From contig NZ_CAMEFX010000005.1 of assembly GCF_945915845.1 (NCBI RefSeq), forward strand, positions 1-64,000: a stretch of DNA of 64,000 bases, given 5' to 3'. This document shows, piece after piece, positions 2,340 to 4,411 of the stretch. The notes under the pieces were generated by a model. It saw only the letters and a list, made by a program, of their open reading frames with translations. It was not told the origin of the DNA and ran no database searches. Position 1 is the first letter of the stretch. The number at the start of each line of letters is the position of its first letter. Position numbers and translations under genes: made by a program. Origin of the DNA: an uncultured Actinobacillus sp. GTDB taxonomy: Bacteria > Pseudomonadota > Gammaproteobacteria > Enterobacterales > Pasteurellaceae.

Positions 2340-2371
2340 TTGACATTGATTCATAAAACCCCCAATATACT
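2340..2371 (+). promoter_or_regulatory. Candidate promoter for the tandem-repeat RNA
   Basis: A perfect -35 hexamer TTGACA lies at 2340-2345. TATACT at 2366-2371 is 20 bases on, longer than ideal. The overlapping AATATA at 2364-2369 gives an 18-base spacer. Transcription would start near 2376, just before the structured repeats. Confidence 0.5.
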
Positions 2372-2374
2372 CAT

Positions 2375-2565
2375 AGGTAGCGTAGCCTAAATAACGCAAT
2401 GAGGTTGTTGGCTCATCGTCAATCTGAAACTAATCTAGAATGTAAAGGTCTAGCGGTGGCAGGCACCAGAAAACTCTGATATAAATCTAGGATGCAAAGG
2501 CCTAGCGGTGGCAGACACCAGAATAAACCAACAATTAAGCCCACACGTTTGTGGGCTTAATGCTT
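2375..2565 (+). ncRNA. Structured RNA with two tandem 40-nt repeats (candidate RNA antitoxin or leader RNA)
   Basis: Two 40-nt units (2433-2472 and 2485-2524) differ at only four positions. Each forms two hairpins. Unit 1 pairs CTAGA (2435-2439) with TCTAG (2449-2453) around ATGTAAAGG. Unit 2 pairs CTAGG (2487-2491) with CCTAG (2501-2505) around ATGCAAAGG. The A-T to G-C change is compensatory. Each is followed by GGTG-CACC with a 5-nt loop. Upstream, TAGG-CCTA (2374-2389) and ATGAG-CTCAT (2399-2415) may also pair. A promoter precedes it and an 11-bp terminator-like stem ends it, 20 bases before the next gene. I do not recognise the family; the layout resembles type III antitoxin RNA. Confidence 0.6.
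2535..2560 (+). terminator. Perfect 11-bp stem after the tandem RNA
   Basis: TTAAGCCCACA (2535-2545) and TGTGGGCTTAA (2550-2560) form a perfect stem with loop CGTT. The following sequence is only moderately T-rich, so termination may be partial. Partial read-through would let some transcripts reach the gene starting at 2581. Confidence 0.6.
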
Positions 2566-2580
2566 TCTGAAGGAATAATA

Positions 2581-3018
2581 ATGAGTACTAAATTTGTGGA
2601 TATAAAAGACCAAATTTTAATGAGTTAAAAAAATTTGAATATCTTTTAACTCACATTGAAATGTGCAGCAGTTTTCCTTAATAAACACTTTATTAATAAA
2701 GAAATGATTTATAGTACTAATAATGAATCCATTTCTCTTATATTTAAACGTAGTAATTTTATGCACCTATGCGGAATTCAATATAGTGAAGGTGCCTCAG
2801 AATTCTTTAATCTAGCCTTAATAAAACAAATCGATCTTAGCAAAATTTTTATTAAAACCGATGGGACAACATTTCAAAAATTATCAGTGTTAAGCTCAAT
2901 AAATTCTTTACTTACTTCAGATATCACATTGACCGAAGGTGTTTTTTATCTAAATTTGTCTTTTGATAAAGCGTTAAAAACAAGAAAAAAAGTCTTTGCA
3001 CTAACATTAGTGCAATAA
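2581..3018 (+). pseudogene. PBECR4-like nuclease gene, apparently doubly frameshifted
   Basis: ATG at 2581 follows GAAGGAA (2569-2575) and reads MSTKFVDIKDQI before stopping at 2626. The -1/+2 frame from about 2616 continues FNELKKFEYLLTHIEMCSS until 2680. The original frame then resumes with FLNKHFINKEMIYS and runs to the stop at 3016-3018. Two compensating 1-base indels would restore about 150-160 residues. The C-terminal part contains FMHLCGIQY, DGTTFQKLSVL and FYLNLSFDKALKT, which I associate with PBECR4 (a Barnase/EndoU/ColicinE5/RelE-like nuclease fold). Its place just after a repeat RNA suggests a toxin partner. Alternatively the real product is only 2656-3018 (TTG start), or the indels are assembly errors. 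Confidence 0.55.
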
Positions 3019-3111
3019 TGATAATACATTTATTCCGCTGTCATTGATTAATCTTAAATTTATAAATAATTTTCCAAACGGAAATAAAGTAACTCATATT
3101 AAGTCCATTCA

Positions 3112-3140
3112 TTTACAAGATAGCACAGAAATAATATACT
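3112..3140 (+). promoter_or_regulatory. Promoter for the second small RNA
   Basis: TTTACA (3112-3117) and TATACT (3135-3140) are separated by exactly 17 bases, a good sigma-70 promoter. No open reading frame follows, only structured sequence ending in a terminator. Confidence 0.6.
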
Positions 3141-3146
3141 TATAGT

Positions 3147-3300
3147 TCATCAGTGTGAAGAGTACTGAATGATTGGGAAAATGTCCCCTCGATCATTTAA
3201 AAGGCAGGGATCCGAGTACTTGTACGAACCAATCTTAGATTGGGTTTGTTAGGCGCGGCTAACAAAGTATGTAATGGGGAGCTTATGCTCCCCTTCATTT
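3147..3300 (+). ncRNA. Candidate ~150-nt small RNA with four stem-loops
   Basis: Between a good promoter and a strong terminator there is no ORF but a chain of helices. AATGAT/ATCATT (3168-3173 with 3192-3197) is extended by GGGA/TCCC (3175-3178 with 3184-3187) and enclosed by AGTACT/AGTACT (3161-3166 with 3215-3220). AACCAATC pairs with GATTGGGTT (3227-3246, one bulge). TTTGTTAG pairs with CTAACAAA (3245-3266). The terminator stem follows. The unpaired AAAAGG near 3199-3204 echoes the AAAGG loops of the upstream tandem RNA. It is not 6S, tmRNA or RNase P as far as I can judge; the family is unknown. Confidence 0.6.
3276..3300 (+). terminator. Rho-independent terminator of the second small RNA
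   Basis: GGGGAGC (3276-3282), loop TTAT, GCTCCCC (3287-3293), then TTCATTTTT. Confidence 0.8.
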
Positions 3301-3323
3301 TTCTAATGATCTTTATAAAAAAG

Positions 3324-3414
3324 TTACAGCATATTTACTGATTCTCTCAGCATTTCTACATCATGTTCAATATAGCCAAGTGTTACGCTGATATCCTTGT
3401 GTCCTAACAGCTTC
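3324..3414 (-). pseudogene. Tyrosine recombinase C-terminal tail
   Basis: The last 30 or so codons of the minus-strand frame read KLLGHKDISVTLGYIEHDVE and end in SVNML. This is the C-terminal active-site region of a phage-type integrase: the LLGH motif and, nine residues on, the nucleophilic Tyr of GYIEH. The rest of the recombinase is missing. The frame is fused in phase to a transposase fragment at about 3414. It marks the remains of an integrated element. Confidence 0.65.
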
Positions 3415-3738
3415 TGAACCAAATAATCTTTCACATCGTTGACCGCACTTTCAAAATCAACATAACCACCATATGCCATCCACTCATATTTAAAACTTCT
3501 AAACCAACGCTCCATCGGGGCATTATCCCAGCAGTTGACCCGTCGGCTCATACTTTGTGTTAACTTGTGGTTTTGCACACATTGGGTAAATTGCTTGCTC
3601 CCATAAATACTGCCTTGGTCTGAGTGAAACAACATCGTTTTCCTACGTTTGGTCTGCAACATAGCGTGATTTAATGCATCGATAACCCATTGCGCATCGT
3701 GGTGTCGACTCAGTTTCCAACCAACCACTTGGCGGTCT
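3415..3738 (-). mobile_element. IS3-family OrfB transposase remnant (truncated at both ends)
   Basis: The minus-strand frame contains DRQVVGW, MLFHSDQGSIYGSKQF, LTQSMSRRVNCWDNAPMERW and FRSFKYEWM, the DDE core of an IS3-family transposase (second Asp in HSDQG, Glu in PMERW). Its front end is cut at about 3738, beside the stop codon of the antitoxin gene. Its back end is fused to an integrase tail at about 3414. The first Asp and the usual YNxxRPH ending are absent, so it is inactive. The same IS appears at the left window edge. Confidence 0.8.
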
Positions 3739-3741
3739 AAC

Positions 3742-4107
3742 TTAAGCCTGTAATTCGTTAATAAGCTCAGGTTTGCGGTGTAGTAGGTCTAACAGCGTTT
3801 TGGCGGCACCACTTGGTTTGCGTAAGCCTTGTTCCCAAGAGCGAAGGGTCGCAACTGAAATACCGAGCTTCTCCGCAAATTTAGGTTGTGATAATTTGGC
3901 GGCATGACGAGTTTCAACAATAGGGGAGACTTCAATTTGCGTTAAGCGAACGCCTGTAAAGTCGCCTTGTTTGACAAGTTCTAGAGTATCTCGTAAATCT
4001 TCTGCGTGTTCAGCCATTTCTGGATCGTCTTCAATCACAGCCTGAATGATAGTTTCTATATTCCAATGTTTGGCTTTTTCTTGAATTTTTTGATGAATCT
4101 TATCCAT
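3742..4107 (-). CDS. HTH antitoxin of a HigBA-like type II toxin-antitoxin pair
   Basis: A 121-residue protein with a helix-turn-helix of the Xre/HigA kind in the C-terminal half: LSQPKFAEKLGISVATLRSW followed by EQGLRKPSGAAKTLL, about residues 72-108. The N-terminal half is helical and acidic, probably the toxin-binding part. Its start overlaps the toxin gene's 3' end by 8 bases, giving the toxin-first order typical of higBA and NadS-type pairs. It should neutralise the RelE-fold toxin and autorepress the operon. Its stop codon abuts the IS remnant, but the protein looks complete. Confidence 0.8.
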   Translation of the reverse strand: MDKIHQKIQEKAKHWNIETIIQAVIEDDPEMAEHAEDLRDTLELVKQGDFTGVRLTQIEVSPIVETRHAAKLSQPKFAEKLGISVATLRSWEQGLRKPSGAAKTLLDLLHRKPELINELQA

Positions 4108-4411
4108 TTTTCGCTCCTGTTAATTGTTTTAAATCTTGGTTTGATAAGTTTTCTTTTTCATTTTTGGTGTAAATATCCATCATAATGACAACGCCATCTT
4201 CTAGTAAGTTGAAGTAGATTACTCTTACTCCTCCTCTTTTTCCCTTGCTATTTGCTTGCCAACGAACTTTGCGTAAGCCGTCAGCATGTTTTATGACATC
4301 TCCAACTAAAGGATTTTGGGCAATATAACTAAAAAATTCGAGGCGTTCGTCCTCTGTCCAAATCTCTCTGGCTTTACGCTGAAATTTCTGATATTCGATA
4401 ATGGTATACAT
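4100..4411 (-). CDS. RelE/HigB-family mRNA interferase toxin
   Basis: A 103-residue basic protein. The centre DGLRKVRWQANSKGKRGGVR followed by VIYFNLLEDGVVIMMDIYTK matches the RelE/HigB2-like fold, with basic residues (KGKRGG) before the central strands and the end LSNQDLKQL. It would cleave mRNA on the ribosome when unopposed. It is the first gene of the pair, preceded by GGAGAG seven bases before the ATG and by a good promoter at 4435-4462. The overlap with the antitoxin implies translational coupling. It is intact. Confidence 0.8.
   Translation of the reverse strand: MYTIIEYQKFQRKAREIWTEDERLEFFSYIAQNPLVGDVIKHADGLRKVRWQANSKGKRGGVRVIYFNLLEDGVVIMMDIYTKNEKENLSNQDLKQLTGAKNG

Follow-up and report, generated by a model that had tools for sequence, protein, structure and literature searches.

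The broken PBECR4 gene in the analysed DNA (the window, 64,000 nucleotides from an uncultured Actinobacillus sp.) is preceded by a tandem-unit RNA that accompanies PBECR4 in Pasteurellaceae, Lactobacillales, Listeria, Planococcaceae, phages and Enterococcus plasmids. RNA and gene probably form a type III-like toxin-antitoxin module with a non-ToxN toxin, in which toxicity, binding and neutralisation are inferred. To our knowledge, ToxN is the one toxin superfamily for which type III systems are known, AbiF being a recent outlier. The results obtained here concern the RNA itself: how it pairs, that it is associated with PBECR4, that it is bound to neither position nor strand, and that it persists without the gene. 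An initial annotation of the window had already proposed a type III-like locus, and this reading is supported by the conserved repeats, the covariation, the order repeats-terminator-gene and the lack of an Rfam riboswitch match. The case remains inferential, as no experiment shows that PBECR4 is toxic or an RNase, that the RNA is expressed or that the two bind, and two loci (L086 and L071) are exceptions.

The features of the window locus are collected in the table. The covariance model that matches the RNA rests on 29 sequences, one of them the window copy. On sequence grounds this match is not due to chance, because its E value is very low and blastn finds homologous RNA in other genera as well as in a Streptococcus phage (Javan100, 77% identity, in the RNA only and in no other part of the locus). 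The repeat core of about 40 nt differs between the units at four bases, as the initial annotation had stated, and the change from CTAGA/TCTAG to CTAGG/CCTAG does preserve pairing. The promoter drawn there is only half supported, since TTGACA is real but has no -10 hexamer 16-18 nt away; the region is weak by consensus because of the spacing of its two hexamers. Relatives L012 and L015 carry TTGACT-17-TAATCT at this place. The stem between repeats and gene is perfect as described, but not of the 11 bp given there. On the + strand its U tract is weak in the window and no terminator was called, whereas relatives have a clear U tract. The Shine-Dalgarno site that had been claimed is present in the form of a GAAGGA-like motif. 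Linker 2 and loop 1 of the window copy form three Watson-Crick pairs and one G-U pair. The single-sequence folding energy is only modestly low (z = -1.9), pseudoknots being outside that model, so that the decision on the fold came from covariation, and an Rfam search of the region down to E = 10 returned chance matches only, with no family for the window RNA.

Table. Features of the PBECR4 locus in the window.
Feature	Position	Strand	Details and basis
Promoter-like region	2340-2371	+	TTGACA 2340-2345, TATACT 2366-2371, 20-nt spacing
Whole RNA element, match to model R1	2388-2536	+	cmsearch 138.8 bits, E = 5.1e-29
5' hairpin H0	2399-2416	+	Loop GTTGTTGG 2404-2411, predicted to pair with tail 2528-2535
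Repeats	2423-2471, 2475-2523	+	49 nt each, 86% identity
Linker 1 TCTG	2423-2426	+	Predicted partner: unit 2 stem-B loop CAGA 2512-2515
Unit 1	2435-2467	+	Stem A 2435-2453, stem B 2455-2467, loop CAGG 2460-2463; covariation and fold
Linker 2 TCTG	2475-2478	+	Predicted partner: unit 1 stem-B loop 2460-2463
Unit 2	2487-2519	+	Stem A 2487-2505, stem B 2507-2519, loop CAGA 2512-2515; covariation and fold
3' tail CCAACAAT	2528-2535	+	Predicted partner: H0 loop
Perfect 12-bp terminator-like hairpin	2534-2561	+	Between RNA and gene; z = -6.3 against shuffles
Shine-Dalgarno-like GAAGGA	2569-2574	+	Sequence
PBECR4 (PF18813) gene, broken	2581-3144	+	Coding similarity in three frames
Converging ORF, IS-type integrase core joined to tyrosine integrase end	3324-3728	-	PF00665; PF00589 weak

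The PBECR4 assignment made in the initial annotation was confirmed by a Pfam scan (PF18813, E = 4.8e-16, 60.1 bits against a gathering cutoff of 27), and so was the suspected frameshift, as homology to an intact relative runs in three frames (2598-2675, 2653-3012 and 3020-3142). Close relatives such as L008-L011 and L015 have an intact gene. The window locus is a decayed copy from which no full PBECR4 protein can be made while the RNA is preserved, as in many other genomes.

In each unit of the RNA, stem A is of the CTAGG/CCTAG type with a loop of about 9 nt, and stem B is of the GGTG/CACC type with a loop of 5 nt. Pairing with the linkers involves the final four bases of the stem-B loops and crosses between the units: the loop of unit 1 takes the linker ahead of unit 2, and the loop of unit 2 the one ahead of unit 1. 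A pairing of TCTG with CAGA inside one unit was considered and dropped, as each linker is complementary to the other unit's loop. Loop 2 and linker 1 are 100% paired and fully Watson-Crick in 17/17 distinct RNAs; for loop 1 and linker 2, 99.1% of cells are paired (29 RNAs), and 13 of the 17 distinct combinations are fully Watson-Crick, the other four being one pair short. Altogether 132 of 136 ring pairs are Watson-Crick, compared with a mean of 79 and a maximum of 105 in 10,000 permutations. The exchanged pairing (loop 1 with linker 1, loop 2 with linker 2) is complete in none of the 13 RNAs whose units differ. Over all helices 88% of cells pair and 27 of 31 pairs have changed on both sides; neither score was reached in 500 shuffles, and sliding the partners destroyed the signal. 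Kinship among the rows means that the permutation results cannot be taken as exact probabilities, a problem that weighs less on the exchange control, which is made within each RNA. The complementarity between the 5' hairpin loop and the tail likewise covaries across many distinct sequence pairs, among them GTTGTTGG/CCAACAAT, ATGATTAGG/CCTAATCAT, GTTAG/CTAAC, TAGTCGG/CCGACTA and GGCAGG/CCTGTC. This strong base-pair covariation gives a predicted fold in which the two units form a ring, closed by the loop-linker exchange and by the pairing of 5' hairpin and tail.

Natural variants also occur. In L113 the RNA is split into two pieces some 220 nt from one another, each with its own hairpin, unit and tail. 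Crosswise matches link the two in their hairpin loops, tails, stem-B loops and linkers; judged by these matches, it is the same ring assembled from two pieces. Single-unit RNAs occur in L022, L071, L171, L172 and L175, and their loop matches their own linker. L071 lies beside an intact PBECR4 gene, and the idea that two units are required was rejected on this account. Three-unit RNAs were seen in L191 and L197, where, as read by eye, the middle unit matches itself and the outer two match each other. L169 (G418:C80) lacks PBECR4 beside its two tandem ring RNAs, which immediately precede a ToxIN-like locus that has its own repeats and a ToxN gene (PF13958, E = 8.6e-31).

Conservation of the repeats beside PBECR4 was borne out in many genomes. 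PBECR4 was found in nine of 140 Pasteurellaceae genomes, with the repeats upstream in 9/9, and a search of the 140 genomes with the RNA model, which is independent of PF18813, returned the identical nine. Among 398 evenly drawn genomes of Lactobacillales (GTDB order), 53 had PBECR4 and 39 had the RNA, the latter at 47 places, 28 of which adjoin an intact or broken PBECR4 gene. The 261 genomes from the order of Sporosarcina had the RNA at 18 places, seven of them adjoining PBECR4. Over the 799 genomes this amounts to 75 RNA places, 44 adjoining PBECR4, as counted by comparing the coordinate lists of the RNA and PBECR4 searches. The RNA also lies upstream of PBECR4 in a Streptococcus phage and in plasmids of Avibacterium, Enterococcus, Lactiplantibacillus, Pediococcus and Macrococcoides. 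PBECR4 occurs in 76 Enterococcus plasmid records, and the only one read (L032, pEfm741160-vanA) has the ring RNA.

In most loci a structured tandem-unit RNA stands directly before a terminator and the gene, an arrangement that would also suit a cis-regulatory leader, that is, a tandem-aptamer riboswitch or attenuator that senses a ligand or PBECR4 and controls terminator read-through. The initial annotation had held a riboswitch-like or attenuating leader to be the main alternative, and it is weakened by convergent loci and solo RNAs. In L040, L111 and L114, the RNA is located downstream of an intact PBECR4 gene, on the opposite strand and with its own terminator. About 30 RNA places, including L132-L134, L146, L149 and many in the order of Sporosarcina, have no intact PBECR4 gene, usually with the terminator kept. 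Among these places, the gene is cut after about 55 residues in L135, L136 and L138 and replaced by another element in L147 and L148, with the RNA retained in all five. The ring pairing is kept in most of the solo RNAs checked, for which the four-base strings were copied manually out of the sequences. A terminator-like hairpin follows the tail in each of the 35 relatives examined, at a median distance of 3 nt, and in 34 of them the gap between the conserved pairings and the terminator stem is at least 0. There is thus no sign of an attenuator switch, because the conserved pairings do not overlap the terminator. Furthermore, no Rfam riboswitch matches the RNA, and other PBECR4 clades have unrelated leader RNAs. 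We therefore regard a cis-acting leader as very unlikely.

Losses at these loci run in one direction. Only one ring-clade PBECR4 gene was seen to lack a leader RNA altogether (L077); it is interrupted close to its start by an in-frame stop, and its upstream neighbour is a group II intron-type reverse transcriptase gene. A toxin-antitoxin pair predicts just this pattern, in which the RNA outlasts the gene but the gene does not outlast the RNA. Association, trans arrangement and coevolution would fit equally well without inhibition, if the RNA were a substrate, guide or activator and formed with PBECR4 a ribonucleoprotein effector against phages or plasmids; PBECR4 loci do sit on phages, plasmids and integrative elements. 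However, an RNA that often outlives its protein, and a clade protein found only once without RNA and then broken, make up an asymmetry of the antitoxin type, so that such a non-inhibitory partnership appears unlikely.

Under the preferred toxin-antitoxin reading, PBECR4 would be a small BECR-type toxin with inferred RNase activity, and the ring RNA would be a trans-acting antitoxin that binds and silences the nuclease, the binding being assumed by analogy with ToxIN, CptIN and AbiF/RCd22. Each unit might hold one toxin molecule and block its active site, which would give two toxin molecules per two-unit RNA; this stoichiometry is also an inference. The terminator ahead of the gene is presumed to keep the RNA in excess over the toxin mRNA. 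A terminator was detected no more than 130 nt upstream of 57 of 74 standalone PBECR4 genes, compared with 24 of 122 other genes nearby (P = 2e-15). The toxin would become free once transcription ceases or the element disappears, a trigger that is again inferred.

PBECR domains have been described as predicted RNases with a histidine in an N-terminal helix and a C-terminal Ser/Thr (PMC5512222). In A4, the motif NFMHLC with His67 and the motif P-x-S with Ser159 are invariant. The AlphaFold model of PBECR4 is confident (pLDDT 89.9). A Foldseek search of this model against the PDB gave no significant match; RelE, HigB, YoeB and ParE-type toxins were among the weak matches, with probabilities of at most 0.21. 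Pfam and the published prediction are thus what supports the BECR assignment. A sequence search of the PDB found no match, searches with PADLOC and NCBIfam found nothing relevant, and PHROGs returned only families of unknown function. In the literature covered by the search, PBECR was mentioned and PBECR4 was not found by name.

In a tree built from 76 standalone PBECR4 proteins, a branch with 99/99 support separates clades of 49 and 27 rows. The ring RNA is upstream in 40 rows of the larger clade and convergent in three, and weaker variants of it occur in L042 and in the Lactococcus-phage rows L034-L036. L086 has an intact ring-clade gene with a different leader. On the 27-row side, other structured RNAs occupy the same place. 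The RNA class tracks the protein clade, with 16 changes as opposed to 34.6 in shuffles, the classes other than the ring RNA having been assigned by simple sequence motifs. Two of the other leaders are Rfam families: Bacilli-1 (RF02931) is found directly before the standalone PBECR4 gene in L096, L099, L100, L102, L104 and L106, and drum (RF02958) in L058 and L085. L098 also belongs to the loci with Bacilli-1 or drum ahead of a standalone PBECR4 gene. All six Bacilli-1 matches in the 16 genomes tested lie at a PBECR4 gene, and drum was matched only once, and weakly, in 199 Lactobacillales genomes, immediately ahead of a PBECR4 fragment. Like the ring RNA, both are structured and stand before standalone PBECR4; no function is known for either Rfam family. 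Their models do not match the window RNA and their folds differ. Bacilli-1 and drum may be RNA antitoxins of other PBECR4 subfamilies. The Rfam skipping-rope RNA was observed after Bacilli-1-led PBECR4 genes in L096 (168-245, - strand) and L100 (1569-1649, + strand). In polyvalent PBECR4 proteins (ORFs >1000 aa), neither the ring RNA nor an upstream terminator was found.

ToxIN, CptIN and TenpIN consist of a tandem-repeat pseudoknotted RNA, a Rho-independent terminator and a small RNase gene, and in CptIN two RNAs are joined with two toxins (PMC5086642). The PBECR4 loci resemble them in having tandem repeats beside the gene, with two units as the rule and single-unit exceptions, in the Rho-independent terminator between RNA and gene (apart from the weak U tract of the window copy), and in units that are pseudoknots, the last point resting on covariation only. 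In contrast to these systems, the protein belongs to PF18813 and not to PF13958 in the Pfam scan, whose library does find ToxN in L169; the units interlock within one RNA through linker-loop pairing and the 5' hairpin-tail clamp; and the RNA is sometimes convergent to the gene, although the one-operon order fits most loci. For AbiF/RCd22 of Clostridioides difficile, the RNA neutralises by direct binding, in cis and in trans, and a two-motif repeated RNA precedes the gene, with no cut found between the motifs (PMC12373285). PBECR4 shares with this pair a protein outside the ToxN family and an RNA with two repeated motifs before the gene. However, AbiF is an Abi_2 protein (AbiD/F, Cas13-linked) with another RNA motif, and the Pfam scan gave no Abi_2 match at the PBECR4 locus. 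Polyvalent proteins contain the same Pfam domain, of which solo versions in phages have been noted; the part of that work available describes no RNA partner (PMC5512222).

We lean towards the broader view that PBECR4 represents a whole superfamily of nucleases that lie outside the ToxN fold and are neutralised by RNA, through several unrelated inhibitor classes (ring, Bacilli-1, drum and others), and that the ring RNA is a self-closing architecture in which tandem units exchange loop-linker pseudoknots. If true, the pairing of a BECR nuclease with an RNA of its own would add one more independent invention. The candidate system occurs in Pasteurellaceae, lactic acid bacteria, Listeria and phages and on many Enterococcus plasmids, one of them a vanA plasmid, and genes annotated as 'PBECR4 domain-containing protein' would become candidate toxins for plasmid maintenance or phage defence. 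Bacilli-1 and drum, two Rfam RNAs so far without a function, would thereby be offered one, and the fold makes sharp, testable pairing predictions.

Several Pasteurellaceae loci lie between a tRNA-Leu fragment and a converging integrase, and the repeats could in principle belong to the mobile element, as attachment site or in integrase control or replication, and merely travel with PBECR4. The RNA, however, also occurs on a 4.3-kb plasmid that has no integrase, within a Streptococcus phage and, where it stands alone, at unrelated chromosomal places, and its covariation is that of an RNA with pseudoknots; we consider this explanation scarcely credible. In the window, the PBECR4 copy has Rhs tip and immunity genes upstream and the chimeric transposase-integrase remnant behind it; relatives L009 and L014 also have an integrase of this kind after PBECR4. 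Fragments of tRNA-Leu were seen upstream in L011, L012, L014 and L015 and on both sides in L008, which points to tRNA-Leu as the integration site of a small integrase-bearing element. The interval that separates PBECR4 from the converging integrase (window 3145-3323; L008, L009) includes a stretch of about 130 bp that is conserved in several genera and contains GTTAGGC/GGCTAAC-type arms and a GC-rich terminator; it is possibly a recombination site or another RNA. The Rhs-tip debris (1-2203) includes a weakly Imm26-like gene (201-653), an Endonuclea_NS_2 nuclease fragment (717-1121) and two NTF2-type immunity genes (1133-1531 and 1817-2203). Directly past the element is a pair resembling a RelE/HigB-type toxin and an HTH antitoxin (3742-4411, - strand).
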